A stretch of 40,597 nucleotides of DNA from Pelotomaculum sp. PtaU1.Bin035 (lineage in GTDB: Bacteria; Bacillota; Desulfotomaculia; Desulfotomaculales; Pelotomaculaceae), in the NCBI GenBank assembly GCA_002067965.1, contig MVRN01000118.1:1-40597 (forward strand). Reading direction: 5' to 3'. Positions 8,805 to 27,482 of this stretch are shown piece by piece. The position numbers were made by a program, and so were the translations under genes. The stretch's first letter is position 1, and each line of letters opens with the position of its first letter. The notes under the pieces are model-generated. The model was given only the letters and a program-made list of their open reading frames with translations, ran no database searches and was not told where the DNA came from.

Positions 8805-9638
<834 letters not shown>

Positions 9639-9668
9639 TTCCAAATTTCTTTGTAAGGGGTGAGAACA

Positions 9669-9995
9669 TTGCTAATGATAAGGGCTATCGTCAGGCCTGA
9701 AAAAACAAACAGCATTTTGGCCGAGCTGAGCGTTTCGGGATTCCCGGCGGTGACCAAGATGGATGTGGTCGGGCGCGGCAAGCAAAGAGGGGTTAAAGTA
9801 GGGGAAATTGTTTATGCCGAGATCCCCAAAGAATTACTGATGCTGGTCGTGCAGGATGAAGATAAGGAAGATGTAATCAGCATTATTTCGAGATTGGCCA
9901 AACCAGGGGAAAAAGGAGCTTTCGGCGACGGTAAAATATTCGTCAGCCCGGTGGAAGAAGCGTATACCATCAGCAGCGGATCCAAGGGGCTGTAG
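9669..9995 (+). CDS. nifI1: Nitrogen regulatory PII-like protein NifI1
   Basis: One half of the NifI1/NifI2 pair, PII-family proteins that bind the NifDK protein and switch nitrogenase activity off when fixed nitrogen is plentiful; 2-oxoglutarate relieves this. The PII core is visible in MIRAIVRPEK, the T-loop region GRGKQRGVKVGE and the C-terminal GDGKIFVSPVEEAYTI. I choose TTG 9669, which gives MLMIRAIVRPEK like other family members and sits 8 bases after AAGGGG; the GTG at 9660 lies within that ribosome-binding site. Its position between nifH and nifD is diagnostic of archaeal and clostridial nif operons. Confidence 0.94.
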   Translation: MLMIRAIVRPEKTNSILAELSVSGFPAVTKMDVVGRGKQRGVKVGEIVYAEIPKELLMLVVQDEDKEDVISIISRLAKPGEKGAFGDGKIFVSPVEEAYTISSGSKGL

Positions 9996-10011
9996 GAGGA
10001 GCTTATATTTT

Positions 10012-10392
10012 ATGAAGGAAATTATAGCCATCATCCGTATGAACAAAGTAAATGAAACCAAGAAGGCTTTAATGGATGTCGGAATTTGCGGCCTCCATGC
10101 TGTCAAGGTAATGGGGCGGGGCAAGCTGCGGGTGGATTTTTCCATGCTGGGAGGAATCAGCATCCAGGAAGAGATCGGCGGGATTTTGGCGGATGGTTTG
10201 GCAAAGGGAAGCAGGCTCATTCCAAAACGTATGTTGACCATCCTGGTCCAGGACGGAGAAGTTGAAAAGGTGGTTAATGCTTTAATCAAAGTTAATCAAG
10301 GCGGCAATAAAGGGGACGGCAAGATTTTTGTCGCGCCCGTCCTGGATGTGGCCAGGGTTAGGACCGGTGAGCGGGGTGAAGTGGCAGTCTAG
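10012..10392 (+). CDS. nifI2: Nitrogen regulatory PII-like protein NifI2
   Basis: Partner of NifI1 in post-translational control of nitrogenase. The 126-residue sequence has the PII start KEIIAIIRMNKV, a longer T-loop region (residues about 38-65, GRGKLRVDFSMLGG) than NifI1, as is typical of NifI2, and the C-terminal GDGKIFVAPVLDVARVRTGERG. AGGAGGAG lies 11 bases before the ATG. It is 16 bases behind nifI1 and 29 bases ahead of nifD. Confidence 0.95.
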   Translation: MKEIIAIIRMNKVNETKKALMDVGICGLHAVKVMGRGKLRVDFSMLGGISIQEEIGGILADGLAKGSRLIPKRMLTILVQDGEVEKVVNALIKVNQGGNKGDGKIFVAPVLDVARVRTGERGEVAV

Positions 10393-10421
10393 GCAATAAA
10401 GCGTCGCAAGGAGGCAGGAGA

Positions 10422-12029
10422 ATGGCGATTGATCAAAAGATGCTGGAAGAAATTATCATAGGCCAGTACCCGGCAAAAGTTAAGAGGAACCGGAGAAAGC
10501 ACATCCTGATCAGGGATACCTCCCTGGCCGCGCAGGAAATTGAAGCCAACACCCGGACCATCCCGGGGATCATTACCAACCGCGGCTGCGCCTTCGCCGG
10601 CTGCAAAGGGGTGGTCCTGGGGCCGCTCCGGGACATGGTGCATATTGTCCACGGGCCGGTCGGGTGCGCTTTTTACAGCTGGCTTACCCGGCGGAATAAG
10701 GCGAAAAGCGATGATCCCGGAAAAAACTTTTTAGCTTATTGTGTGTCTACCGATATGCAGGAAGGCGACATCGTCTTCGGCGGGGAGAAAAAGCTGAACA
10801 GGATGATTGACGAAGTGGTGGAAATTTTTCATCCCAACGCGATTACGATATCAGCCACCTGCCCGGTGGGGTTAATCGGCGACGACATCCAGTCGGTTGC
10901 CAGGATGGCCCGGGAAAGGCACGGAATCAGTATCACCGCTTACAACTGTGAAGGCTATAAGGGGGTCAGCCAGTCCGCGGGCCACCACATTGCCAATAAC
11001 GGCCTGATGGAGCATGTGATCGGGCTTGGCGACATGGAAGAGCCGCCCGGCAAATTTACCATTAATATCCTGGGTGAGTACAACATCGGTGGCGACAGCT
11101 GGGAAGTCGGGAGGGTCCTGGAGGAACTTGGCTATGATGTGCAGGCGGTGATGACGGGCGACGGTTCTTTTGAAGAACTGAAAAACGCCCATGTATCGCA
11201 ATTGAACCTGGTGCAATGCCACCGGTCAATTAATTATATTGCCGATATGCTTGAAAAAAAATACGGCACGCCCTGGCTAAAAGTAAACTTCATTGGTATC
11301 CGGGCCACTTGCGAGACGCTGCGGAATATGGCCCTGTATTTCGGCGATGAATCGTTGATCCAACGGACCGAAGAAGTTATCGCCAGGGAGTTGGCCAGGA
11401 TCGAGCCGCTGCTGGAGCCATATAGAAAAATCTGCGAGGGAAAAACAGCCTTCTGTTTTGTCGGTGGGTCGCGCGGCCACCACTACCAGGGCCTGTATGA
11501 GGAGTTGGGGATTAAGACATTGCTGGCCGGTTATGAGTTCGCCCACCGCGACGATTATGAAGGGCGGCAGGTTCTTCCCAATATCAAGCCCGACGCGGAC
11601 AGCAAAAATATCCCTGAATTGCATGTCGTTCCGGACGATAGACGCTACAGGCTGAAGCTGCCGGCGGAGAAAATGGAGGAACTGAAAAGCAAGATCCCGC
11701 TGAGTTACTATAAGGGCATGATTGCGGATATGAAAGACGGCAGTGTTATTGTAGATGATTTAAACCACAAGGAAACGGAAGAACTGATCAGGATCTTGAA
11801 GCCGGATATCTTTTCCTCCGGCATAAAAGATAAATATATTCCGCAAAAAATGGGTGTTCCGGTCAAGCAGTTGCATAATTACGATTATAGCGGACCTTAC
11901 GCCGGATTCAACGGAGCTGTTAACTTTGCGAGGGACGTCAGCATGAACTTTGTCACGCCTGCCTGGAATTACATCGTGCCGCCCTGGAAGAACAAGCCTT
12001 TGTTGGAGGGGACTGTTCAGGATTCATGA
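10422..12029 (+). CDS. nifD: Nitrogenase molybdenum-iron protein alpha chain NifD
   Basis: Alpha subunit of dinitrogenase, carrying FeMo-co and half of the P cluster. P-cluster ligands are Cys56 (RGCAFAG), Cys82 (HGPVGC) and Cys147 (ATCPVG). FeMo-co ligands are Cys266 (NLVQCHRS) and His485 (KQLHNYDYSGPY). The substrate-site residues Gln184 and His188 (GVSQSAGHHIAN) are kept. The 535 residues include the insertion (about 395-450, EGRQVLPNIKPDADSKNIPE and following) found in Clostridium pasteurianum-type NifD. There is no delta-subunit gene (vnfG/anfG) behind it and it resembles clostridial NifD, so this is a molybdenum enzyme. Confidence 0.98.
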   Translation: MAIDQKMLEEIIIGQYPAKVKRNRRKHILIRDTSLAAQEIEANTRTIPGIITNRGCAFAGCKGVVLGPLRDMVHIVHGPVGCAFYSWLTRRNKAKSDDPGKNFLAYCVSTDMQEGDIVFGGEKKLNRMIDEVVEIFHPNAITISATCPVGLIGDDIQSVARMARERHGISITAYNCEGYKGVSQSAGHHIANNGLMEHVIGLGDMEEPPGKFTINILGEYNIGGDSWEVGRVLEELGYDVQAVMTGDGSFEELKNAHVSQLNLVQCHRSINYIADMLEKKYGTPWLKVNFIGIRATCETLRNMALYFGDESLIQRTEEVIARELARIEPLLEPYRKICEGKTAFCFVGGSRGHHYQGLYEELGIKTLLAGYEFAHRDDYEGRQVLPNIKPDADSKNIPELHVVPDDRRYRLKLPAEKMEELKSKIPLSYYKGMIADMKDGSVIVDDLNHKETEELIRILKPDIFSSGIKDKYIPQKMGVPVKQLHNYDYSGPYAGFNGAVNFARDVSMNFVTPAWNYIVPPWKNKPLLEGTVQDS

Positions 12030-12070
12030 TCTGTGGGTGAAGAAATAAATTATTGTGAGGAGAAAATCGT

Positions 12071-13456
12071 ATGTTAAACAGTACCCCGAAGGAATTGATT
12101 GAACGAGCGGGCGGAGCGATAAACCCCGCCAAAACTTGCCAACCCATCGGGGCTATGTACGCAGCCCTGGGGATTCACAAGTGCCTTCCCCACAGCCACG
12201 GCTCCCAGGGCTGTTGTGCCTACCACCGTTCGCACTTAACCAGGCATTTCAGGGAGCCTGTTATGGCATCCACCAGTTCCTTTACCGAAGGGGCCTCGGT
12301 GTTCGGGGGAGGGGCCAACGTGAAAACAGCTGTTAATAACGTTTTTACCATTTATAACCCCGACGTTATGGCCATTCATACCACGTGTCTTTCCGAAACT
12401 ATCGGGGATGACCTTCCTACTTACATTAAGGCGACTGAAGTGCCTGAAGGCAAGGTGGTAATCCATGCCAACACCCCCAGCTACGTGGGTTCCCATATTA
12501 CGGGATTTTCCAACATGACTAAAGCAATGGTCAGCTACCTGGCGGAAGCTTCAGAAGAAAACAAGAAAGAGCAGGCGAATATTATTCCCGGTTTTGTCAA
12601 CCCGGGGGACATGCGGGAAATAAAGAGACTGGCAAAGCACATGGGGGTTAAGTCCATAATGTTCCCCGACACCTCGGGTGTATTGGATTCACCTATTACC
12701 GGACAGTTTATGATGTATCCCAAGGGAGGCGCGAGAGTAGAAGATATCAGAGACTCGGGAAATTCAAGAATCACTCTTGCCCTGGGCAGCTACGCCTCCG
12801 CCGACGCCGCTTACCACCTTGAAAGAAAGTGCAAGGTGCGGGCTATTACCCTGAAAACGCCGATTGGAATTAAAGCCACGGATGATTTTCTGATGACCTT
12901 GCGGAGCAACTTTGTCAAAGAAATACCTTATGACCTGGAAGAAGAAAGAGGCCAGCTGGTGGATATTATGACCGACACCCACTATCATTTTTATGATAAA
13001 AAAGTAGCCGTCTTCGGTGATCCGGATATCGTGGCGGCAACGGCCGAATTTTTACTGAGCCTTGGTATGAGGCCGGTCCACGTCCTGACCGGGACGCCCG
13101 GCGGGGTGACGGGCGCTTCGGCGGGCGGCTTTGAAAGAGAAGTCAAAGAAATGCTGGATCAGTCCGGGGTCCAGGCCAATATCAAGGCCGGCGGCGATTT
13201 GTTTTTGCTGCACCAATGGATAAAAAACGAACCGGTGGATTTATTAATCGGAAATACCTATGGCAAATACATCGCCAGGGCGGAAGACCTGCCCTTTGTG
13301 CGGCTGGGCTTTCCCATCCTGGACAGGAGCATGCATCCCTACCTGCCGATAGTCGGCTACAAAGGCGCAATGCGGTTGCTTGAATTGATCGGAAACGCGC
13401 TTTTGGACAGGGTGGACCGTGACGCGAGCGATGAGGACTTTGAGTTGGTCATGTAA
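12071..13456 (+). CDS. nifK: Nitrogenase molybdenum-iron protein beta chain NifK
   Basis: Beta subunit of dinitrogenase; it shares the P cluster with NifD. The P-cluster ligands are Cys23 (PAKTCQPIG), Cys48 (GSQGC) and Cys106 (HTTCLSETIGDD), with the supplementary ligand Ser137 (NTPSYVGSH). At 461 residues it lacks the N-terminal extension of proteobacterial NifK, as expected for group III nitrogenases. TGAGGAGAAAATCGT precedes the ATG. The gene lies 41 bases after nifD and 12 bases before nifE. Confidence 0.98.
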   Translation: MLNSTPKELIERAGGAINPAKTCQPIGAMYAALGIHKCLPHSHGSQGCCAYHRSHLTRHFREPVMASTSSFTEGASVFGGGANVKTAVNNVFTIYNPDVMAIHTTCLSETIGDDLPTYIKATEVPEGKVVIHANTPSYVGSHITGFSNMTKAMVSYLAEASEENKKEQANIIPGFVNPGDMREIKRLAKHMGVKSIMFPDTSGVLDSPITGQFMMYPKGGARVEDIRDSGNSRITLALGSYASADAAYHLERKCKVRAITLKTPIGIKATDDFLMTLRSNFVKEIPYDLEEERGQLVDIMTDTHYHFYDKKVAVFGDPDIVAATAEFLLSLGMRPVHVLTGTPGGVTGASAGGFEREVKEMLDQSGVQANIKAGGDLFLLHQWIKNEPVDLLIGNTYGKYIARAEDLPFVRLGFPILDRSMHPYLPIVGYKGAMRLLELIGNALLDRVDRDASDEDFELVM

Positions 13457-13468
13457 TCTTCAGGCAAT

Positions 13469-14824
13469 ATGGAAGAAATGGAAGTGGTTTTGTTGACTGG
13501 GCTGCCGATTGAGGAAAGAAGAGATTTTATCCTTACGAAAGGAAAACAAAAAAGGCAACTGAAGTGTGATGCCGACAGCGTGGCGGGCTCGGTCAGCCAG
13601 CGGGCTTGTGTTTATTGCGGCGCCAGAGTGGTTTTAAACCCTGTAACGGACGCGGTCCACCTGGTGCACGGGCCTATCGGGTGCGCCAGCTACACCTGGG
13701 ATATCCGGGGCAGCTTGAGCAGCGGGGCCGACTTGTACCGGAACAGCTTTTCCACCGACCTGAAGGAGCACGATATAATTTTCGGCGGGGAAAAGAAGCT
13801 TGCCAGGGCCATTGACGAGTTGGTGCGAAAATATCGTCCCAAACTGGTATTTGTCTATTCAACCTGTATTGTCGGAGTTATCGGCGATGATCTGGAAGCA
13901 GTATGCAAAGCTGCTTCAGGAAAACACGGGATCGAAGTCATTCCGGTGCAGTCCAGCGGTTTTATCGGAAATAAGTCGGCAGGCTACCGGGCCGCCTGTG
14001 ACGCGCTGATGCGCCTGATCGAGCCCGGGGAAAAGAAATATGTTATAAAAAGTAAAAATATTAATTACTTAGGTGACTTTAATCTGGCGGGAGAGGCCTG
14101 GATTATTAAAAGATACTTGAGCCGGATGGGGGTCGATATTAATGTTGTTTTTACCGGGGACTCAAGCTACGCGGCTTTAAAAAAGGCTGCCGGGGCGTCT
14201 TTAAATATAATCCAGTGCGCCGGCTCAATGATTTATTTGGCTAGCCGGATGGAGGAAAATTACGGTATCCCATATATGAACGTGTCTTTTGTGGGCATCG
14301 AAGATACGTCCAATTCTCTGAGAAATATAGCGAAGGCCTTCAATGATCCGGAAATGGCGTATAAGGCCGAACAGTTAATTGAGCATGAGACGGCATTGGT
14401 TAAACCCGCAATTCAGCGTTATCGTGAAAAGCTTGAGGGTAAAAAAGCGGCCGTTTATGTCGGCGGCGGGTTTAAAGCGGTTTCCCTGATCAAACAATTT
14501 AAAGAAATCGGCATTGATGTGGTAATGATCGGGACTCAGACGGGACGGCCGGAAGATTATCGAAGGATCGGCGACCTGGTGGATGACGGGACGGTAATCC
14601 TGGATGACGCGAATCCCGCCGAGTTGGAGAAATTCATGCTTGAAAAGGGCGCCGATTTATTGGTAGGCGGGGTGAAAGAAAGGCCCCTGGCCTATAAATT
14701 GGGTATTGCTTTCATAGACCACAACCATAACCGGAAGCACCCGCTCAGCGGTTTTATCGGCGCTGTAAATTTCGCGGAAGAAGTATATGCCACTGTTTGT
14801 TCCCCGGTTTGGAACTATATATAA
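13469..14824 (+). CDS. nifE: Nitrogenase FeMo-cofactor assembly scaffold NifE
   Basis: NifE with NifN forms the scaffold on which the NifB product (NifB-co) is matured to FeMo-co before transfer to NifDK. The 451-residue protein is a NifD homologue with the cluster-binding cysteines in RACVYCGAR (Cys47, Cys50), HGPIGC (Cys72) and YSTCIVGVIGDD (Cys133). The ATG at 13469 has only a weak upstream AGG; ATG 13478 is a possible alternative. The end overlaps nothing, and nifN begins 20 bases after the stop. Confidence 0.96.
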   Translation: MEEMEVVLLTGLPIEERRDFILTKGKQKRQLKCDADSVAGSVSQRACVYCGARVVLNPVTDAVHLVHGPIGCASYTWDIRGSLSSGADLYRNSFSTDLKEHDIIFGGEKKLARAIDELVRKYRPKLVFVYSTCIVGVIGDDLEAVCKAASGKHGIEVIPVQSSGFIGNKSAGYRAACDALMRLIEPGEKKYVIKSKNINYLGDFNLAGEAWIIKRYLSRMGVDINVVFTGDSSYAALKKAAGASLNIIQCAGSMIYLASRMEENYGIPYMNVSFVGIEDTSNSLRNIAKAFNDPEMAYKAEQLIEHETALVKPAIQRYREKLEGKKAAVYVGGGFKAVSLIKQFKEIGIDVVMIGTQTGRPEDYRRIGDLVDDGTVILDDANPAELEKFMLEKGADLLVGGVKERPLAYKLGIAFIDHNHNRKHPLSGFIGAVNFAEEVYATVCSPVWNYI

Positions 14825-14844
14825 AAGCTAAAGAGGGGATAACA

Positions 14845-16239
14845 ATGAAGGACAACACGTCCTACCGTTATGCGAATGAAAACCCGTGCAATATGTGTAT
14901 GCCCATGGGCGGGATTATCTCATTCAAAGGCGTGGAAAAGTCCATGGTGATCATCCATGGCTCCCAGGGCTGCAGCACATACATGCGCCGGCACATTGCC
15001 GAACACTTTAACGAACCGGTCGACGTGGCCTCCTCTTCGCTTAATGAGAAGGGCACCATTTACGGCGGGGAAAACAACTTGAGAAAAGGTTTGGACAATT
15101 TAATCAAGTTATACAATCCCGGGCTAATCGGCGTGCTGACGACCTGTCTGGCTGAAACAATTGGTGAAGATATCGAAAGGATTACGTCGGATTACCTTAA
15201 GGACAGAGGGCTGACGGACTTGCCCGTGGTTGCGGTGTCCACTCCCGGTTACGGCGGCACGCATACGGAAGGTTATTTTCTGGCGTTAAAAAAGATTATA
15301 TACAGGCTGGCCGGCAAGGCGGGGAAGAATTCCCGGATCAATATAATAGTTCCCAGCCTGAGCCCGGCTGATATCCGGGAAATAAAAAGGATCCTTCATG
15401 TTATGGATGTCGACTGTATCCTTTTCCCTGATTACTCCGACACTCTGGACCGCCCCTTTGAGAGGCCTTATAAAAAGGTTCCTGATGGTGGGACCAGGCT
15501 GGCGGATATCGCCATGATGCCGGGCGCCGCGGCAACTATCCAGATGGGCGTTACGGCGGGTGACAATATTTCACCAGGCGGGTACTTGGAAAGTCATTTC
15601 GGAGTCCCTTTATACAACCTGCCCATACCTATGGGTATCGAAAATACAGACTTATTTGTTGAAACGTTGAAAAATCTAACCGGCAACGACGTGCCTGAAA
15701 ACCTGCGGCAAGAGAGAGGCAGGCTCCTGGACTGCATGGTCGACTCTCATAAATATAACTTCGAGGGTAGGAGCGTTGTTTTTGGTGAGCCGGAAAATGT
15801 GTATGCGATTGTTAAGACTTGCCTGGAAAACGGAATTGAGCCGGTAGTGGTTGCGACCGGCGGCAAGTCGAACAAACTGACTGAGTTGCTCAAGTCATGT
15901 TTAAATGGATGCCGTGGCAATGTGCATTTTTTAGATGAAACGGACTTTTCAGAAATTAGGGAAAAGAGCAAGGAGTCGGCTGCGAATATTGCGATTGGCC
16001 ATTCCGACGGCAGGTACCTGACTGAAAGAGAGGGTATTCCCCTGGTGCGGCACGGTTTTCCCATTCATGACCGGGTGGGGGGGCAAAGGTTGCTGTCGGT
16101 GGGGTACCTCGGCACCACCATGTTTCTGGACAGAATTACCAATACCTTGCTGGAAAATAAATATGGCAGCTACCGGAGCAATATGTATCAAAAGTTTTAT
16201 CAAAACACCGGCGATAATCCTTTGCAAACTATGAGGTGA
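14845..16239 (+). CDS. nifN: Nitrogenase FeMo-cofactor assembly scaffold NifN
   Basis: Partner of NifE and NifK-like in fold. The 464-residue protein shows ENPCNMCMPMGG (Cys15, Cys18), HGSQGCSTYMRRH and LTTCLAETIGED, the NifK-type cluster-region motifs. I start it at ATG 14845 with AGAGGGG 8 bases upstream; a longer frame to TTG 14797 would overlap nifE and add residues unlike NifN. The last codon overlaps the region of the nifB ribosome-binding site, so nifN and nifB are probably translationally coupled. Confidence 0.95.
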   Translation: MKDNTSYRYANENPCNMCMPMGGIISFKGVEKSMVIIHGSQGCSTYMRRHIAEHFNEPVDVASSSLNEKGTIYGGENNLRKGLDNLIKLYNPGLIGVLTTCLAETIGEDIERITSDYLKDRGLTDLPVVAVSTPGYGGTHTEGYFLALKKIIYRLAGKAGKNSRINIIVPSLSPADIREIKRILHVMDVDCILFPDYSDTLDRPFERPYKKVPDGGTRLADIAMMPGAAATIQMGVTAGDNISPGGYLESHFGVPLYNLPIPMGIENTDLFVETLKNLTGNDVPENLRQERGRLLDCMVDSHKYNFEGRSVVFGEPENVYAIVKTCLENGIEPVVVATGGKSNKLTELLKSCLNGCRGNVHFLDETDFSEIREKSKESAANIAIGHSDGRYLTEREGIPLVRHGFPIHDRVGGQRLLSVGYLGTTMFLDRITNTLLENKYGSYRSNMYQKFYQNTGDNPLQTMR

Positions 16240-16244
16240 TGGAA

Positions 16245-17276
16245 ATGGATTGCTGCAATATTTCTTTGTCGGAACAAACTGGCAGGCACCCGTGCTATTC
16301 CTTTGACGCCCACCTTAAGTTTGCCAGGATGCACCTGCCTGTGGCGCCTCTCTGCAATATAAGCTGCAATTACTGCAATAGGAAATTTGATTGTTTAAAC
16401 GAAAGCAGGCTGGGTGTAACCAGTGAGGTCCTGTCGCCTGAGTCGGCGGCGCAAAAATATGATTTTGTTAAGAAAAAAATTCATAACTTAAGCGTTGCCG
16501 GTATTGCCGGACCGGGAGACGCGCTGGCCAATTGGCAAGAAAGCAGGCGGACTATAGAGCTGATCAGGCAGTCCGACCCCGATGTACTGTTCTGTTTATC
16601 CACGAATGGGTTGATGCTGCCGGAATATGCCAAGGAAATTATCCGCCTGGGCGTCAAACATGTGACCGTTACTGTAAACTGCCTTATCCCCGAAATAGGA
16701 CAAAGAATATATAAGTTTGTGAATTATCAGGGAAAAAAATATGAAGGTGTCCAGGGCGCCGGCATACTTATGGAAAACCAGTCGGCCGGTATACAGCGCC
16801 TCGTCCGGGGAGGGGCGGCGGTAAAAATAAATATCGTGATGATAAAAGGCATCAATGACCGGCATATCCCGGATGTTGTAAAGAAAGTAAAAGAACTGGG
16901 CGCTTTTATCACCAACATTATGCCGCTGATACCGGCTCAGGGGAGCGCCTTTGAAGGCCTGCCCCAGACTAACATGAAAGAAATAAACCATATGAGAGAC
17001 GTCTGCCGGGCCGACCTCCGGCAAATGCGCCATTGCAGGCAATGCAGGGCTGATGCCGTCGGTATGTTGGAACACGACCGGTCATTGGAATTTCGAAGGG
17101 TGTGGGAGGAAAAAGAAGCCAATACAGATAGTAAGCAAGGCCCTGCGGTTTCACTAAGAGCGGGCTATAACGCCAGAAAAAGGCAGAAAAATAATATTCT
17201 CAGTGTTGAGTGTTACGATACTGTGGAAAACGCGTTGAAGCACGCGGCCGGAATCTTACATGACAAGGAGTGGTGA
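16245..17276 (+). CDS. nifB: Nitrogenase cofactor biosynthesis radical SAM protein NifB
   Basis: NifB fuses two [4Fe-4S] clusters and inserts a carbide from S-adenosylmethionine to make NifB-co, the core of FeMo-co. The 343-residue protein has the HPC motif (Cys17), the radical SAM CxxxCxxC (Cys37, Cys41, Cys44 in CNISCNYC), the glycine motif AGPGDALAN, and the C-terminal CRQC motif (Cys264, Cys267) with RADAVG, which supplies K-cluster ligands. It has no NifX-like C-terminal domain, only a short basic tail. Start chosen at ATG 16245, 5 bases after GAGGTGA; ATG 16239 and GTG 16236 are alternatives. Confidence 0.97.
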   Translation: MDCCNISLSEQTGRHPCYSFDAHLKFARMHLPVAPLCNISCNYCNRKFDCLNESRLGVTSEVLSPESAAQKYDFVKKKIHNLSVAGIAGPGDALANWQESRRTIELIRQSDPDVLFCLSTNGLMLPEYAKEIIRLGVKHVTVTVNCLIPEIGQRIYKFVNYQGKKYEGVQGAGILMENQSAGIQRLVRGGAAVKINIVMIKGINDRHIPDVVKKVKELGAFITNIMPLIPAQGSAFEGLPQTNMKEINHMRDVCRADLRQMRHCRQCRADAVGMLEHDRSLEFRRVWEEKEANTDSKQGPAVSLRAGYNARKRQKNNILSVECYDTVENALKHAAGILHDKEW

Positions 17277-17283
17277 TGATAAA

Positions 17284-17601
17284 TTGAACAAGCCCAAATA
17301 CCATGTTTTTGTTTGTACCAGTTCCAGGGTTAATGGTCAGCAAAAAGGCTTTTGCCATACAAAATCGTCAGTCGGCATTGTAAGCAGTTTTATGGAAGAA
17401 ATTGAAGGCAGGGGACTCGGCGGCGAGGTTGCGATATCTAATACAGGATGTTTCGGACTTTGCGAGAGAGGGCCGGTGGTGGTCGTCTACCCGGATAATG
17501 TCTGGTATGGCGGGGTAACGGACAGCGACGTGGAAGAGATCATGGACGAACATATCGAAGGCGGTAAAGCGGTAAAACGATTGGAGCTGTCAAGCAGCTA
17601 A
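17284..17601 (+). CDS. Thioredoxin-like [2Fe-2S] ferredoxin
   Basis: A 105-residue protein of the thioredoxin-fold [2Fe-2S] ferredoxin family, known from Clostridium pasteurianum and Azotobacter, where it is linked to nitrogen fixation. The cluster ligands are Cys11 (FVCTSSR), Cys24 (GFCHTK), Cys56 and Cys60 (NTGCFGLCERGP). The TTG at 17284 gives the typical MNKPKYHVFVCTSSR start; a longer frame begins at ATG 17260 inside nifB but has no ribosome-binding site. It starts 7 bases after nifB and may donate electrons to, or protect, nitrogenase. Confidence 0.93.
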   Translation: MNKPKYHVFVCTSSRVNGQQKGFCHTKSSVGIVSSFMEEIEGRGLGGEVAISNTGCFGLCERGPVVVVYPDNVWYGGVTDSDVEEIMDEHIEGGKAVKRLELSSS

Positions 17602-17614
17602 AATAAGGAGGCAA

Positions 17615-17656
17615 ATGGCGGACATGAGCCCGTTGGCAAGCGCCATATACACCTGA
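17615..17656 (+). CDS. Possible 13-codon leader peptide
   Basis: An ideal AAGGAGG is followed five bases later by ATG 17615 and a 13-codon frame (MADMSPLASAIYT, then TGA). A small TGGC/GCCA hairpin lies inside it, and the AnfO-like gene begins 35 bases after the stop. It could be a true small peptide or the remains of a larger gene. Evidence is limited to the ribosome-binding site. Confidence 0.3.
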   Translation: MADMSPLASAIYT

Positions 17657-17691
17657 ACAAATTTGGCAGCCGCGTAAGGAGAGTAGTTTTT

Positions 17692-18321
17692 ATGCGTAGA
17701 AGTATCGCGGTATACGTCGGGGAAAATGGTGAGACCACGTCGCTGTTCAACCAAGGTAGACTGGTTGTTTATCAGAAAAAGAAGGGCAAATGGAGTTCCA
17801 TGAAAGAAATGGACTTTTCCCCGGACGGAAGCCGGGGTATTAAAGAACTGCGTAAAAAGATGGAAGAAGTATTGGAATTCTTGGGCAACTGCAGGGTAAT
17901 CGTAGGGCTGTCGATAACCGGTGTGCCTTATTATGAGCTGGAAAAATGCCGCTTTAGTGTTTGGGAATTTGAGGGGAGACCCTTGGAGTTTCTGGACTAC
18001 GTCCTTGAAAAAGAGGAAGAAAAGCAAAGTCTGGAGGATGCTGAGCAAAACGCCTGCTTGCGGTTTATTCCAATTGAAACATCAAGCGGCAACTATCAGA
18101 TTTCAATTAAGGAAATCCAGGAAAAAGATATTGGGCTCACCACAAAACAAGTGCTGCTGCCGGTTTTGCGCAAAGGCAACTTTAATTCACTGGAAGTTAT
18201 TTGCAGCCATGTGCCCCCCTGGCTTGAAGCCGGGCTGTTAAGCAATTGCTACTGTGGGGAAATTAAAAAAAATAATAATGATGTCAGGGTCATTTTAACC
18301 GGTAGAGTTATACCAAGCTGA
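17692..18321 (+). CDS. anfO: AnfO-like nitrogenase accessory protein
   Basis: The 209-residue protein matches what I know of the AnfO family (Fe-only nitrogenase accessory protein): the start IAVYVGENGET, the segment GRLVVYQKKKGKW, a helical KELRKKMEEVLEFLG stretch, then GVPYYELEKCRFSVWEFEG and LDYVLEKEEEK. AnfO proteins are normally encoded behind anfHDGK and are needed for full activity of the iron-only enzyme; their biochemical role is not settled. Here it follows a molybdenum nif operon with no anfD, anfG or anfK in the window. AAGGAGAG lies 8 bases before the ATG. The C-terminal half is less similar in my memory of the family. Confidence 0.8.
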   Translation: MRRSIAVYVGENGETTSLFNQGRLVVYQKKKGKWSSMKEMDFSPDGSRGIKELRKKMEEVLEFLGNCRVIVGLSITGVPYYELEKCRFSVWEFEGRPLEFLDYVLEKEEEKQSLEDAEQNACLRFIPIETSSGNYQISIKEIQEKDIGLTTKQVLLPVLRKGNFNSLEVICSHVPPWLEAGLLSNCYCGEIKKNNNDVRVILTGRVIPS

Positions 18322-18359
18322 CTGGTAAACAGGATTATTTTTCACAACATGCAGTGAAT

Positions 18360-18444
18360 TTTAATAGCCGCGCCCGGTCAGGATGGAATGGAAGTTTATC
18401 TTCTAAACCATATGGCGTCCGAACCCGGTGTAGCGGCTATTAAA
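18360..18444 (+). ncRNA. Highly folded intergenic RNA or palindromic element
   Basis: A perfect 12-bp stem (TTTAATAGCCGC at 18360-18371 with GCGGCTATTAAA at 18433-18444) closes an 85-base element. Inside are CCGG/CCGG (18374-18377 with 18425-18428), GGATG/CGTCC (18381-18385 with 18416-18420) and an apical GTTTA/TAAAC stem with loop TCTTC. It has no T tract. It lies 38 bases after the AnfO-like gene and 161 bases before the NifB paralogue. I could not match it to a known riboswitch; it may be a structured RNA or a small non-autonomous repeat. Confidence 0.45.
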
Positions 18445-18451
18445 TTTAAAG

Positions 18452-18518
18452 TCAGTAGTCAGAATACTGTTAGAAAACAAGCTGTTTGTTTATTCCGGCT
18501 TCTGAATTCTGACTCCTG
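18452..18518. repeat. Imperfect palindromic repeat with GAATTCTGACTCCTG arm
   Basis: The left arm CAGTAGTCAGAATACTG is an imperfect reverse complement of the right arm CTGAATTCTGACTCCTG (18502-18518), with a small AAACA/TGTTT hairpin between them. The right arm recurs near 34713. In both places a TATAAT follows (here 18531-18536), so the repeat may carry or sit beside a promoter for the NifB paralogue. Confidence 0.5.
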
Positions 18519-18605
18519 CGTAAAAATAATTATAATGAAAAACATGTTGGCATTCAATTTCTGGTGATGAATCGAGTTTCCGGAGAGGGGAGGTTGCTAA
18601 GCAAA

Positions 18606-19385
18606 ATGGTCTGTGACGCGAAATCAGCTGTTAGTCAGCATCCGTGTTTCAACCATGCCGCGAGAAGATGGTTTTCCTGTGTGCATCTGCCGGTGGCGAT
18701 CAGCTGTAATATAAAGTGCCGCTACTGCTCCAGGGAATACGCTTGCGTTAATGAAAACTATAAAAAAGCAGCCGGAAAAACTGTATCACAGCGTGAGGCG
18801 TTAAAAAAAATGAACAATTATATAAAAAATTGTGAGAGGGTCCGCGTTGTCGGTGTCGCGGGTCCCGGGGAACCGCTGGCGAACAAGGAAACCATCGAAG
18901 TCCTCACCAAGGTCAACTCGCATTATCCTCATCTTGTCAAGTGTGTCTGCACCAATGGCCTGATGCTTGAAGATAACCTGCATGCGCTTTTGGACGCGGG
19001 CGTCAAGACAATTGCTGTAACGGTTAATGCGGTAGACCCCGCGATAGGAGGGGAGATTTATCGCTGGGTCTTTTATAAAAATAAACCGTACCATGGAACC
19101 ATAGGAGCCTGCTTATTATTGGAAAAGCAACTAGCCGGGATTAGGGAGGCAAAGAAAAGCGGCATTATGGTAAAAGTCAACTCAATATTAATCCCGGGCA
19201 TCAACGATTTTCACTTGAGAGAAGTAGCTATTGCCGTAAAAGAAGCCGGCGCATTTGTCATGAACATAGTGCCAATCGTGCCTCAAGCGGAATTTTCTTT
19301 AATCCAGCCGCCCGGCAGCCAGTTGTTGCGGCAGGCTAAAGAAGAGATCGAACCGATAATCCACTTGGCTGAAAGCTGCAGGTAA
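18606..19385 (+). CDS. NifB-like radical SAM protein, C-terminally short
   Basis: Paralogue of NifB. It keeps the SQHPC motif, the radical SAM cysteines CNIKCRYC, the following CVNEN segment, the AGPGEPLAN glycine motif and the VTVNAVDPAIGGEIYRWV region that matches NifB. It ends at AESCR, exactly where NifB reads RHCRQCRADAVG, so the second cysteine of the C-terminal CRQC motif and everything beyond is missing. That motif holds K-cluster ligands in NifB. Either a truncated relic or a variant with another role. I prefer ATG 18606 (259 residues), 13 bases after GGGGAGG; GTG 18564 is the longest alternative. Confidence 0.85.
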   Translation: MVCDAKSAVSQHPCFNHAARRWFSCVHLPVAISCNIKCRYCSREYACVNENYKKAAGKTVSQREALKKMNNYIKNCERVRVVGVAGPGEPLANKETIEVLTKVNSHYPHLVKCVCTNGLMLEDNLHALLDAGVKTIAVTVNAVDPAIGGEIYRWVFYKNKPYHGTIGACLLLEKQLAGIREAKKSGIMVKVNSILIPGINDFHLREVAIAVKEAGAFVMNIVPIVPQAEFSLIQPPGSQLLRQAKEEIEPIIHLAESCR

Positions 19386-19451: not shown

Positions 19452-20685
19452 TTGGATAACAGTAAAATCAACATTGGTGAAATCATAAAAAAAGAGAATA
19501 TTTTTGCTTGTTTTCAGCCGGTTGTATCCGTTAAGAAAAAAATCAATCATTGGTTTTGAAGCTTTGTGCAGGGGTATAAATATTGAGACAAGAGAAGTTT
19601 TGCCTCCGGGCTTATTGTTCGAATCCGCCAGAAGCGAGAATTTTACTTTGGAATTGGACAGGCTGTGCAGGAAAAAAGCTTTGGAAGGTTACAAGGCCGC
19701 TCATACTGAAAATGATAATTTTATTTTGTTCTTGAATTTGGATACCTCTATCATAGATTTTGGCGTGGTAGGTTCGGGCCACTTGCTGAACTTGATTAAT
19801 GCGCTGGGAGTGGAGCCAAATAATGTAGTTATAGAAATAGTGGAGTCCAACACTGAAGACGTTAATTCTTTGGAAAGATTTATAAAAAGCTACAAGGGAT
19901 ATGGTTTTTTGACAGCCCTTGACGACGTGGGCTGTGGTTATTCGAACCTTGACCGGGTGGCGCTTGTGAAGCCTGACATATTGAAAATAGACATGGGGAT
20001 TATTAGTAATATTAATAAGTTTTTTTACAAACAAGAAATATTTAAGTCGCTGGTAAGCCTCTCAAAAAGAATAGGCGCGCTTGTCGTTGCCGAAGGTGTG
20101 GAAAGGGAGGAAGAAGCGCTTGTGGCCCTTGAGCTTGGGGCGGATATGCTCCAAGGGTTTTATTTTTCCAAACCCCAAGAAAATATGTTGAATATGGTAA
20201 ATGATATTGATTGCAAGACCAGCAAAATAGCCCATAATTTTAATGATTATATAATCAACAAGATTAAAATAAGCAAACTGCTCCATAGAAATTATAATAT
20301 TATATTGGACAGTATTATTTATGAGCTTTCAAAAATAACTTTAGAAAACTTCGATAGCAAGTTGAGAGAGGTTATCCGGAAATACCCTGCCTTGGAGTGT
20401 ATCTATATTATAAACGAGAATGGCGTTCAAGTTACTGAAACAATCTGCAGCCAGGCTGTGGCGGTAAAAAGAGGCAAAATTTATGTACCGGCAAAAAAAG
20501 GAACTGAGCATTCATTAAAAGATTATTATTATTATCTCGTAAGTACCGGATCTAAAAAATTTACAACTGACCCATATATCTCCTTAGCGTCTGGCAATTT
20601 ATGCATAACGATATCTTCGTTTTTCGAGAATTTTAACTTTGATCGTTATATTTTGTGTATTGATATCAATAAGGAGGAAAAATGA
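19452..20685 (+). pseudogene. EAL-domain c-di-GMP phosphodiesterase with C-terminal sensor-like domain, frameshifted
   Basis: An EAL phosphodiesterase would hydrolyse cyclic di-GMP. The catalytic motifs are present: GFEALCRG, NLDTSI, IEIVES, LDDVGCGYSNLD, KPDILKIDMG, EGVE and LQGFYFSKP. The C-terminal third (LECIYIINENGVQ, KDYYYYLV, PYISLASG) looks like a PDC/Cache-type sensor fold. The normal N-terminal piece ENIFACFQPVVSVKKK lies in another frame starting at TTG 19452 and stops at TGA after HWF. Removing one A from the A7 run at 19536-19542 restores FQPVVSVKK-SIIGFEALCRG. So this is a sequencing error, a slippage site or a true disruption. From 19504 on, 393 codons are open. Confidence 0.8.
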
Positions 20686-24910: not shown

Positions 24911-25222
24911 GTGGCCCTGGAAATCAGTGAGGACAATTTAAAGCACGGTTTGCTCGGGCTGGTCATCGCTCTGGTGGAGATCATCAAGGACGCGTTGAAA
25001 ATGCAGGCCGTGGCGCGCATGGAAGACGGCAGTCTGGAAGAGTGTGAAATAGAGCGGTTGGGCCGGGCATTACTGGACTTAGACCGGGCGATTGACGAGA
25101 TTAAATGTGAGCAAGGGATAACCGAGTCGGTAAAAAGCGTCCGGGACGGCCTGGACAGGATCGTGAACGACGTGGTGGACCGGCTCCTTAATCCCCGGCG
25201 GTGGGCAGAAGAAGCAGAATAA
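24911..25222 (+). CDS. gvpK: Gas vesicle protein GvpK
   Basis: A 103-residue, mostly helical protein matching GvpK: LKHGLLGLVIALVEIIKDAL at the start, then EECEIERLGRALLDLD and the C-terminal VNDVVDRLLNP. GvpK is essential for gas vesicle formation in several bacteria and is thought to act early in assembly; its mechanism is unclear. The start is GTG 24911. The gvpL start follows 11 bases after the stop. Confidence 0.93.
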   Translation: MALEISEDNLKHGLLGLVIALVEIIKDALKMQAVARMEDGSLEECEIERLGRALLDLDRAIDEIKCEQGITESVKSVRDGLDRIVNDVVDRLLNPRRWAEEAE

Positions 25223-25233
25223 GGGGTGGGGAA

Positions 25234-26400
25234 ATGGATTTCCGGGTGGATGGCGGTTCAAACAGCGTGACGGAACAGCCCGTGCCGGTGATGATTTCAC
25301 TGGCGCGCCTGCTGGTCAAGCGTGAATTGGAAAGACTTGGCCTGGAGAAAGAATTGCAGGCGGTTGCACAAGACGTTGCACGGGATATTATACAGTCGAC
25401 CGTTCGGGATGCTGTCCGCGTTGTGCTGGATGAAATGGCCGGCGATAAGGTAAAGCCAGCTTTGCTGGAGCGGCAGGATGGTGTGCCGGCAGCCTTAAGC
25501 CAGGTCCCTCAAGTATCGATGGAACCCTGTGAATCCACCAATCCGGCAATATTTCCGCCAGTGCCGGAGCGTCAAATAAGCGCTTCGCTGCCTGGGGAAC
25601 AATTGTTTGCGGGCGGTGGGCCGGCGGGCCTGTACATATACGGCGTGGCCATGGGAGAAGAGGAAATAGATCTGGATGCCGCAGGTATTGACGGATGCCG
25701 GGTATATACCCTGTCCGCCGCCGGCTTATGCGCAGTGGTGCATGATTGTTCCGCCGAGCCCTACCGGCCGGATAATGACGAGCATGCGAAAGGATGGCTG
25801 TTTGAGCACCAGGATGTATTGGACCGGGTAAAAGAGATGCTTGGCGATGTCCTGCCGATGGGCTTTAATACTATTATGCACGCTGCCGGCCGCCGGCCGC
25901 AAGAGGTGCTGCGGGACTGGCTGGCGCGGGAAAGCAGCCGGCTGAAAGCGATGCTCGGCCGCCTGCGGGATAAAGAGGAATATGCCGTTAAAATTCTTTT
26001 GACTGAAGAAATTTTAAAGCAGGCAGCCCTGCGTGAAGACAGCCGCCTGCAAGAGCTGCAGCGGGAGTTGAACGATAAGCCGGAAGGAGTACGCTATCTT
26101 TACCGGGAAAGGTTGGAAAAATCAGTAAAGGAAGCCCTGGAAGACATAGTGGAAATTTATTTCAGGAAGGCCTACCAGGCAATACGTCCTTCATGCGCTG
26201 ATATTCAAGTGGAAAAAACAAAGCGGGTTTCACCTGAAAAACGTATTATAGCCAACCTGTCCTGTCTGGTGGAGAAAAGCAAGGTAACGGAATTGGGTGA
26301 GACACTGGCGGAAATTGAACGGTGGGAAGGGTTTACTGTAGATTTTACAGGTCCCTGGCCGCCTTACAGCTTTGTCGGTGAACTGGCTGTTCCAGCCTGA
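25234..26400 (+). CDS. gvpL: Gas vesicle protein GvpL/GvpF family with long N-terminal extension
   Basis: The C-terminal 255 residues (from about 130, AGLYIYGVAMG) are a GvpF/GvpL domain, ending with the family signature FTGPWPPYSFV. GvpF and GvpL are assembly factors that bind GvpA and the other accessory proteins. The first 130 residues are an extra part: a helical, charged stretch (ISLARLLVKRELERLGLEKE and a DAVRVVLDEMAGD helix) and a Pro/Ser-rich linker. I start at ATG 25234, with AAGGGGTGGGG upstream. A second, ordinary-length member lies at 30202. Confidence 0.9.
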   Translation: MDFRVDGGSNSVTEQPVPVMISLARLLVKRELERLGLEKELQAVAQDVARDIIQSTVRDAVRVVLDEMAGDKVKPALLERQDGVPAALSQVPQVSMEPCESTNPAIFPPVPERQISASLPGEQLFAGGGPAGLYIYGVAMGEEEIDLDAAGIDGCRVYTLSAAGLCAVVHDCSAEPYRPDNDEHAKGWLFEHQDVLDRVKEMLGDVLPMGFNTIMHAAGRRPQEVLRDWLARESSRLKAMLGRLRDKEEYAVKILLTEEILKQAALREDSRLQELQRELNDKPEGVRYLYRERLEKSVKEALEDIVEIYFRKAYQAIRPSCADIQVEKTKRVSPEKRIIANLSCLVEKSKVTELGETLAEIERWEGFTVDFTGPWPPYSFVGELAVPA

Positions 26401-26447
26401 ACATAAATTATATTATCCATCCTTGTTTGTTATGGGGTTAGAGAATA

Positions 26448-27482
26448 GTGGGAGAAAGCACAAACATGAAACCTGTGAGCCGGCGGGAAGCCACGCTGAA
26501 TGATCTCATCGACCGGGTTTTAATTAAAGGGTTGATGTTGCATAGCGACGTGGTAGTTACCGTATCCGGCATCCCTCTGCTGGGATTGAATTTGCGCCTG
26601 GCACTGGCCGGTATGTCCACCATGCTGCGCTACGGTTTTATGACGGACTGGGACGAGGTTATACGGTCTTCGGTTCAAAAAGAGCGGGCGGTGGAGGGCC
26701 CGCGCCTGGAAGAGGGGGAACGGGTGCTCCTTTCCCGGTTTGGTTCCTGCTGGTTTGGCCGGGGTATTTATTCTGCCTGGCAGCCGGGTTTGATCTACCT
26801 TACCGACAGACGCCTGCTGCTCCACAGGCAGGAACCGGAGGAAACGCTTCTGGATATAAGCTTGGGGCTTGTCAGCGGTATAGATACCCGGCAGGAGCCT
26901 CACTTCAGCGGCCGGGAAAGGAAAGAGATCCTGCTTACCCTGGTTTCGGGCGGTGAAGTGAGGCTGCACAGCGCTGATTGCGGTCAGCTGTTGGCCGCCC
27001 TGGAAAAGGTCTGTATCCCGGCAGTACAGAAAAGCAAAGAATTGCCGGAACCGGGCAATCACGAAAAGATCTGGTTTTTGGCGCCGGACAGGACGGGTAA
27101 ATATGCCTGGGTGCCAGGTGAATTTTCCGTCAAGGAAGGTAGCCTGTGCTGGCGGGGTCATACCGGACCGGGAGCGTCGTTACGGGTGGCTGCGGCCGAT
27201 GTGCTGGCGGTCCGGTTTATCGATGGAGAAACTATGAGCGGCCCGGACGGTGGTCCGGTAATAGAGGTGCGTTACCTGGGCCGGCTTAGTCCGGAAAGTT
27301 TTTACTTTTCCGGTTTAGTAGAAGTATTGCAGCCGTGGGTCTCCCTGCTCAGAGAAGCACGCCGCGACGTCCTGGAAACTTGTCCGTCTTGCGGTTCTCC
27401 CGCTCCCGCCAACCGGCTGATCAATAAGGGCTGTGCCGCCTGCGGCTGGGTCAGCGCCCGGTTTAAGCGGCGTTTACCCTAG
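26448..27482 (+). CDS. GvpJ-like protein with inserted PH/GRAM-like region and zinc ribbon
   Basis: A 344-residue multidomain protein. Residues about 16-64 are a GvpA/J-type core (LNDLIDRVLIKGLMLHSDVV, then VSGIPLLGLNLRLALAG). Residues about 85-160 contain LIYLTDRRLLLHRQEPEETL, typical of a PH/GRAM-like fold; a related second segment around 205-290 (VKEGSLCWRGH, VLAVRFIDG) may be another copy. The C terminus is a zinc ribbon, CPSC...CAACGW, then ARFKRRLP. The ends match the 125-residue protein at 24029, so the middle is an insertion. It may tether vesicle nuclei to a membrane or protein surface (inference). GTG start at 26448. Confidence 0.85.
   Translation: MGESTNMKPVSRREATLNDLIDRVLIKGLMLHSDVVVTVSGIPLLGLNLRLALAGMSTMLRYGFMTDWDEVIRSSVQKERAVEGPRLEEGERVLLSRFGSCWFGRGIYSAWQPGLIYLTDRRLLLHRQEPEETLLDISLGLVSGIDTRQEPHFSGRERKEILLTLVSGGEVRLHSADCGQLLAALEKVCIPAVQKSKELPEPGNHEKIWFLAPDRTGKYAWVPGEFSVKEGSLCWRGHTGPGASLRVAAADVLAVRFIDGETMSGPDGGPVIEVRYLGRLSPESFYFSGLVEVLQPWVSLLREARRDVLETCPSCGSPAPANRLINKGCAACGWVSARFKRRLP

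Follow-up and report, generated by a model that had tools for sequence, protein, structure and literature searches.

Several nitrogen-fixing Pelotomaculum relatives keep a shortened second NifB beside the normal NifB

The nif operon, the short NifB paralogue and its leader

The window analysed here, a 40,597-nucleotide stretch of DNA from Pelotomaculum sp. PtaU1.Bin035, carries a nif operon on the forward strand in the order nifH-nifI1-nifI2-nifD-nifK-nifE-nifN-nifB-fdx-anfO (8820-18321), with the nifI1 and nifI2 labels based on P-II family matches and gene order. It is followed by the gene of a shorter NifB paralogue, which we refer to as NBL, and then by a gene that we take, from its sequence, to be EAL-domain-like; a counterpart of the latter with 57% identity also lies downstream of the short gene in genome G003 (Table 1). 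The NBL reading frame is intact and has no internal stop, as the first-pass annotation of the window had stated. A GTG at 18564 is an alternative upstream start, and the ATG at 18606 agrees with the starts of the orthologues, the initial methionine being invariant in 6/6 aligned. Against the TIGR01290 (nifB) model, with a cut-off of 343.65 bits, NBL scores 243.3 and the operon's own NifB 389.1, and none of the seven short forms described below reaches the cut-off. Matches of NBL to the MoaA and viperin models are weak family matches, reflecting only the common radical-SAM core.

Table 1. Positions of NBL, its neighbours, its predicted ligand sites and the copies of leader element R1
Feature	Position	Strand	Remarks
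Operon's full-length nifB	16236..17276	+	346 aa, carries HCRQCRADAVG
2Fe-2S ferredoxin gene	17260..17601	+	NF041612
anfO	17692..18321	+	PF09582, 227.6 bits; TIGR02940 slightly below cut-off
R1, conserved hairpin element between anfO and NBL	18359..18450	+	about 90 nt; covariance model; no Rfam match
NBL, short NifB paralogue	18606..19385	+	259 aa, C-terminal end ...AESCR
C14, equivalent of K1 ligand C30 (MaNifB) / C29 (MtNifB)	18645..18647	+	Cys in 7/7 short forms
H27, equivalent of K1 ligand H43/H42	18684..18686	+	His in 5/7 short forms; Pro in G005 and G018
CNIKCRYC, radical-SAM CX3CX2C (C34, C38, C41)	18705..18728	+	7/7 short forms
Latch loop C47...E50 (C62, E65 of MtNifB)	18744..18755	+	C47 is Cys in 7/7 short forms
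C113, equivalent of K1 ligand C129/C128	18942..18944	+	7/7 short forms
C258-R259-stop, remnant of K2 motif Cx2CRxDAxG	19377..19385	+	second Cys and RxDAxG absent
EAL-domain-like gene, 3' of NBL	19504..20685	+	label from sequence
R1, other copy	L036:2029-2116
R1, other copy	L039:2469-2556
R1, other copy	L053:7812-7898
R1, other copy	L055:1023-1108
R1, other copy	L040:9759-9843
R1, other copy	L041:6701-6783
R1, other copy	L077:12213-12302

A separate promoter for NBL, also suggested in the first-pass annotation, did not hold up: five sigma-70-like sites were found where 5.0 are expected by chance, and the candidate at 18509-18536 was rejected on these grounds. There is no intrinsic terminator in the intergenic region 5' of NBL. 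The same region contains the hairpin element R1, for which a covariance model was built from eight copies. At E <= 0.001 this model finds one forward copy in each of 9 of the 113 genomes sampled from the order, and these are the nine nif-bearing genomes of the family; eight of the nine copies (or an identical sister) are in the model, so that their scores are high by construction. Relaxing the threshold to E <= 0.01 adds echoes on the reverse strand of G016, G011 and G005 and, from a different family, one weak match in G068 (24.9 bits); the window copy itself scores 76.8 bits forward and 14.5 in reverse. R1 is situated towards the 3' end of the nif operon, downstream of anfO (or nifB) and ahead of the short gene, and in P. 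propionicicum and G023 it is 5' of a NifV-like gene, that of P. propionicicum matching TIGR02660 below the cut-off. Covariation amounts to 13 double-sided cells compared with 6.3 in shuffled alignments (0/500 as high); pairs showing a double change are unremarkable in number (5 compared with 4.0; 151/500 shuffles as high). At gathering thresholds no Rfam family matches the window, with permissive Rfam settings no plausible match to a known riboswitch was seen in 18280-18660 or in three relatives, and no nif leader RNA was found in the literature covered, mostly outside subscription journals. R1 could function as a regulatory RNA or mark a processing site.

Several other features of the window and its genome (G000) were recorded. 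AnfO, known as a guard of the Azotobacter Fe-only nitrogenase, is encoded here in a Mo-type nif operon, and its ICSHV stretch retains a Cys-x-His pattern that resembles the reported Cys201/His203, a likeness between two unaligned proteins. Near the nif region, 25201-27482 encodes gas-vesicle-like proteins (GvpL- and GvpM-like, below cut-off). Additional nitrogenase-like genes of this genome are found on C50 (L034, L181), at C57:23010-25365 and at C36:1465-3610; the set on C50 includes a separate NifB that carries CRQCRADACG, and nearby are a NifX-like protein, an MtaA/CmuA methyltransferase and a homocysteine synthase.

The missing K2 motif and the retained cluster sites

For NifB of M. acetivorans (MaNifB), C50, C54 and C57 are reported as ligands of the SAM cluster, C30, C63, C129 and H43 as ligands of K1, and C264, C274 and C277 as ligands of K2 (PMC7145814). 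Crystal structures reassign C63 (C62 of M. thermoacetophila) as the fourth SAM-cluster ligand, on a flexible loop, and place E65 on K1, and the passages of that account dealing with the ligands name only two K2 cysteines (PMC9692996). Aligned with phmmer to the solved NifB structures 6y1x, 7bi7 and 7jmb, NBL C258 pairs with the first cysteine of HCxxCRAD, the phmmer table for 7jma puts the NBL end at the same residue, and a MAFFT alignment of 117 NifB-like proteins gives the same pairing. When NBL is simply aligned pairwise with the NifB of the operon, the end instead falls some residues earlier, at the cysteine of MRDVCR, and the last few NBL residues are thus aligned without certainty. The earlier claim that the protein stops exactly at the K-cluster motif of NifB is therefore borne out as to the place, but its exactness holds only to within a few residues. 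The same annotation saw no lost RADAVG-like continuation past 19385, and we likewise found none in any frame within 300 nt; a programmed continuation was rejected on this basis.

To describe conservation, ten of the 117 proteins aligned from the loci sampled were set aside (the seven short forms, a truncated NifB of G003, L139, which is cut by a contig end, and the mis-trimmed L130), leaving 107 full-length rows. The K2 cysteines C274 and C277 are present in 107/107, and C264 is not universal, being Ala or Leu in many full-length rows. In all seven short forms the motif Cx2CRxDAxG, which contains K2 ligands, is absent, and the K2 cysteines are degenerate or gone. Their tails read ESCR (window), NYQCFC or SYQCFC (G016, G011, G020), TDCREQCLQDMRKIYC (G003), and RQTI without a cysteine (G005, G018). 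A lone nonsense mutation in the window was rejected, the motif being missing in 7/7 family orthologues, the window included. A curated NifB set has excluded NifBs lacking any of the fingerprint motifs, Cx2CRxDAxG among them (PMC5715403), and by this defining K2 motif NBL is not a NifB.

The remainder of the protein has kept much of what characterises NifB. Exactly six cysteine columns are invariant in the seven short forms (C14, C34, C38, C41, C47 and C113), corresponding to the three radical-SAM (RS) ligands, the 'latch' cysteine and two K1 ligands, and all other cysteines vary. The window copy has the HPC motif and equivalents of the K1 ligands C30, C129 and H43; the substitution of H27 by Pro in two of the seven means that K1 binding may differ in G005 and G018. 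Latch-loop residue 50 is Glu in 5/6 aligned rows and Asp in G005. AGPG is found in the window and four more of the seven and is NGPG in G005 and G018, the GPG stretch being common to all seven. At the TxTxN motif the window copy reads AVTVN, a departure from the pattern that is present in the other six, and at ExRP it reads ENYK, with ExRP itself present in two short forms; since the operon's own NifB also lacks ExRP (ESRL), this absence is weakly informative. Among 43 columns that are at least 97% conserved in the 107 full-length NifBs, 25 are kept in all seven short forms and 18 are changed in at least one, seven of these 18 being the K2/RADA columns. The window copy is changed at the conserved residues R25, P32, R52, P53, G54, P62 and T137. 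At seven sites (S42, R63, K67, N71, F156, N159 and P161) the short clade is fixed for residues that full-length NifB rarely has.

An AlphaFold2 model of NBL, computed from a 63-row alignment picked for diversity from the 117 rows, has a pLDDT of 90.1 and a pTM of 0.89, with a weak stretch at residues 50-56 next to the latch loop. Foldseek places NifB entries at ranks 1 to 5 against the PDB, the best being 6y1x (TMq 0.93, rmsd 1.2), and NBL is confidently predicted to have the NifB fold. The 6Y1X structure contains the RS and K1 clusters only, with the C-terminal stretch disordered (PMC9692996). In the published description the latch residues C62 and E65 hinder SAM binding until K2 arrives, and the latch cysteine caps the unique Fe in 6Y1X (PMC9692996). 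By analogy, NBL looks like a protein fixed in the RS+K1-only state of 6Y1X.

Distribution, descent and selection of the short forms

Nine of the 25 genomes sampled from the family carry nif (NifB-class matches taken at E <= 1e-30), and seven of these nine, from five genera, hold an intact short copy, which answers a question raised in the first-pass annotation as to whether orthologues with the same type of end exist elsewhere. Full-length close relatives around a single copy with a nonsense change, which would have spoken against a maintained variant, are not what is found within the family. A nifB gene is beside the short copy in 7/7 genomes, and in G003 this nifB is itself truncated. In G001 a relic of the short gene, a pseudogene with deleted stretches and stops, lies at the same place, and G023 is nif-bearing with no short gene; the short gene is therefore dispensable. 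A NifB-class match at E <= 1e-57 is present in 34 genomes of the order sample (113 genomes), and the matches outside the family whose C-terminus was read are full length, including 10 (L171-L180) of 31 phylum-level genomes. Several nitrogen-fixing Pelotomaculum relatives thus keep a selected, shortened second NifB beside the normal NifB. In the literature covered, mostly outside subscription journals, no truncated second nifB was found for this group, and the Paenibacillus case discussed below was the only one.

The survey also yielded observations on the surrounding genes. The NifD beside the short gene differs considerably between genomes (G000 and G003 are 50% identical, G000 and G005 39%), and all three pass the nifD cut-off; three very different Mo-type nifDK sets, with NifDs 39-50% identical, thus occupy the same operon position (window 10422-14824, L037, L040), and nifB and the short gene are kept in genomes whose nifDK sets differ. 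The G003 operon looks damaged: its nifB (L037:9935-11207) ends ...MRNICSG and passes directly into an anfO that is missing its initial part, nifK is split into two overlapping frames, and the assembly has no NifB with K2 cysteines left, yet the short gene is kept. At G005:C1:944632-944979 lies part of a further NifB-like gene, interrupted by three stops. In a Halodesulfovibrio MAG, the stop-to-stop frame from 5176 (+) of L104 is NifB-like, with THSCF where NifB has HPC and KANVRCKYDD in place of CX3CX2C, and thus belongs to a relative of NifB whose radical-SAM motif has been lost.

A maximum-likelihood tree was computed from 80 of the 117 rows with the C-terminal columns left out, deltaproteobacterial and other long forms having been thinned and one row dropped. 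The seven short forms constitute one clade (100/100), and its sister group (87/80) consists of 16 NifBs of Moorella, Desulforadius-like and other Clostridia, a more distant clade in which 16/16 rows are full length. In G045, G055, G032 and G054 the sister-clade NifB is the only strong NifB-class match and is located in a cluster with divergent nifDK-like genes; the D and K proteins of G045 fall under the nifD, nifK, vnfD and vnfK cut-offs, which leaves this nitrogenase without an assigned type. The position of the short clade beside the NifB of a divergent nitrogenase argues that NBL derives from the NifB of another nitrogenase lineage and did not arise by recent duplication of the nifB in the operon.

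Selection was estimated from Nei-Gojobori counts in two informative close pairs; ratios for the window against its relatives were left out, as these pairs are saturated (dS of at least 1.86, or infinite). Between G016 and G020 the dN/dS of the short gene is 0.123 (dS 0.29), compared with 0.186 for nifB and 0.391 for anfO, and between G005 and G018 it is 0.049 (dS 0.28), compared with 0.198 for nifB. Out of 2000 runs of a neutral simulation without indels at a dS of 0.29, 0.55% and 0.25% retained an open frame. Neither a broken frame nor a dN/dS near 1, as expected for a pseudogene, was seen, and all seven short forms are without an internal stop. The view that NBL is a maintained variant and not debris is borne out by its presence in 7/9 nif-bearing genomes as one clade under these low ratios.

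Possible functions and known systems

We propose that NBL descends from a NifB whose K2 site was lost before the family's nif-bearing genera diverged, and that it was kept as a separate protein beside a working NifB. It retains the ligands of the RS and K1 clusters and the latch cysteine and is unable to hold K2. Since it cannot hold K2 it should not make NifB-co, judging from published NifB mutants: methyl transfer by MaNifB needs the SAM and K2 modules together, such that the SAM+K1 variant is without it (PMC6053413). The role of NBL is probably something other than synthesis of the cofactor precursor. The analogy to NifB crystallised with RS and K1 only suggests that at rest NBL would be latched, with two [4Fe-4S] clusters and SAM excluded. 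Its most likely part at the NifB step would be to hold or load Fe-S clusters, for instance by supplying or protecting a K1-type cluster for NifB. As the short gene is kept beside nifB despite three NifD sets, the NifB step, common to all, is indicated and not one particular NifDK. Our preferred reading, held tentatively, is that NBL is a maintained RS+K1-only NifB derivative serving as Fe-S holder or loader for NifB; we infer the steps beyond the inability to hold K2, and sequence comparisons of this kind would fit other accessory roles as well as that of a loader. The fuller proposal, of a conserved, separated 'half NifB' (RS+K1, no K2) that is a dedicated NifB accessory with a structured leader specific to nif and absent from Rfam, is possible but doubtful.

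There are two other explanations, each of which we consider unlikely. NBL could be a radical-SAM enzyme acting on another substrate, with K2 loss having opened the active site; the CX3CX2C motif and GPG stretch are kept throughout and the clade-specific fixed sites suggest a new constraint, but so is the latch cysteine that caps the unique Fe in 6Y1X kept in 7/7, AGPG has become NGPG in G005 and G018, and no common neighbour of the short gene was seen beyond nif and mod genes. Alternatively, NBL could be a slowly dying relic, the NifB of a displaced Moorella-type nitrogenase made redundant by the present nifB. The sister group being the sole NifB of a divergent cluster is consistent with this, as are the deletions in the G001 copy, the ragged, lineage-specific C-termini and the loss of conserved NifB residues, and there is a parallel in the NifB3 of two Paenibacillus strains, which lacks the same motif in a study that calls nifB3 and nifB4 possible pseudogenes (PMC8287671). 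Decay is difficult to reconcile, however, with dN/dS values of 0.05-0.12, under that of the neighbouring nifB, and with the lack of a stop in all seven copies at distances where a neutral frame rarely stays open.

Partnership with a neighbouring gene product appears very improbable in either of two forms. Cofactor sorting together with AnfO is suggested by the adjacency of anfO and the short gene in 5/7 genomes and by the reported binding of FeMo-co and FeV-co to the C-terminal domain of AnfO (PMC11938142), but the adjacency may just reflect the operon end, G005 and G018 (the latter 77% complete) have the short gene and no genome-wide anfO match, and G023 (85% complete) has anfO and no short gene. 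Assistance to AnfO, put forward in the first-pass annotation, consequently does not stand as a general role. A split NifB, in which NBL forms a heteromer with NifB and NifB supplies K2, agrees with the presence of nifB next to the short gene in 7/7, but has hardly better prospects: the neighbouring NifB keeps its K2 motif in six of the seven (all but G003) and so needs no partner, and NifB of M. acetivorans is reported to be monomeric (PMC7145814).

How NifB obtains its two substrate [4Fe-4S] clusters, and the order of their fusion, is debated, and a natural protein with one site kept and the other lost would be a ready-made tool for studying the K1 half alone. The preferred reading, of an Fe-S holder or loader for NifB, would show that NifB-derived helpers are possible in nif operons, which is relevant to the transfer of nitrogen fixation. 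If NBL is only a relic, it is an annotation warning: a NifB match without Cx2CRxDAxG is not to be counted as NifB.

Among known systems, NifB itself (TIGR01290; 6Y1X, 7BI7, 7JMA, 7JMB) shares with NBL the fold, the radical-SAM motif, HPC, AGPG, the K1 ligand set and the latch cysteine, and is 44% identical to it in the case of 6Y1X (Foldseek alignment), whereas NBL lacks the K2 motif and falls below the curated cut-off, the window copy also being without TxTxN or ExRP. Its nearest relatives in the tree, the NifBs of Moorella, Desulfofundulus and Desulforadius (46-52% identity), differ in keeping C274 and C277 in 16/16 rows. In the diazotrophs Paenibacillus zanthoxyli JH29 and P. durus DSM 1735, NifB3 is likewise an additional NifB of reduced length that lacks Cx2CRxDAxG, but the published account describes its gene as scattered over the genome with a NifX-like gene as neighbour, uninduced and possibly a pseudogene, and nifB3 and nifB4 did not restore nitrogenase (PMC8287671). 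The SAM+K1 mutant of MaNifB has the same cluster set as that predicted for NBL, RS and K1 without K2; that mutant was made in the laboratory, whereas NBL is natural (PMC6053413).
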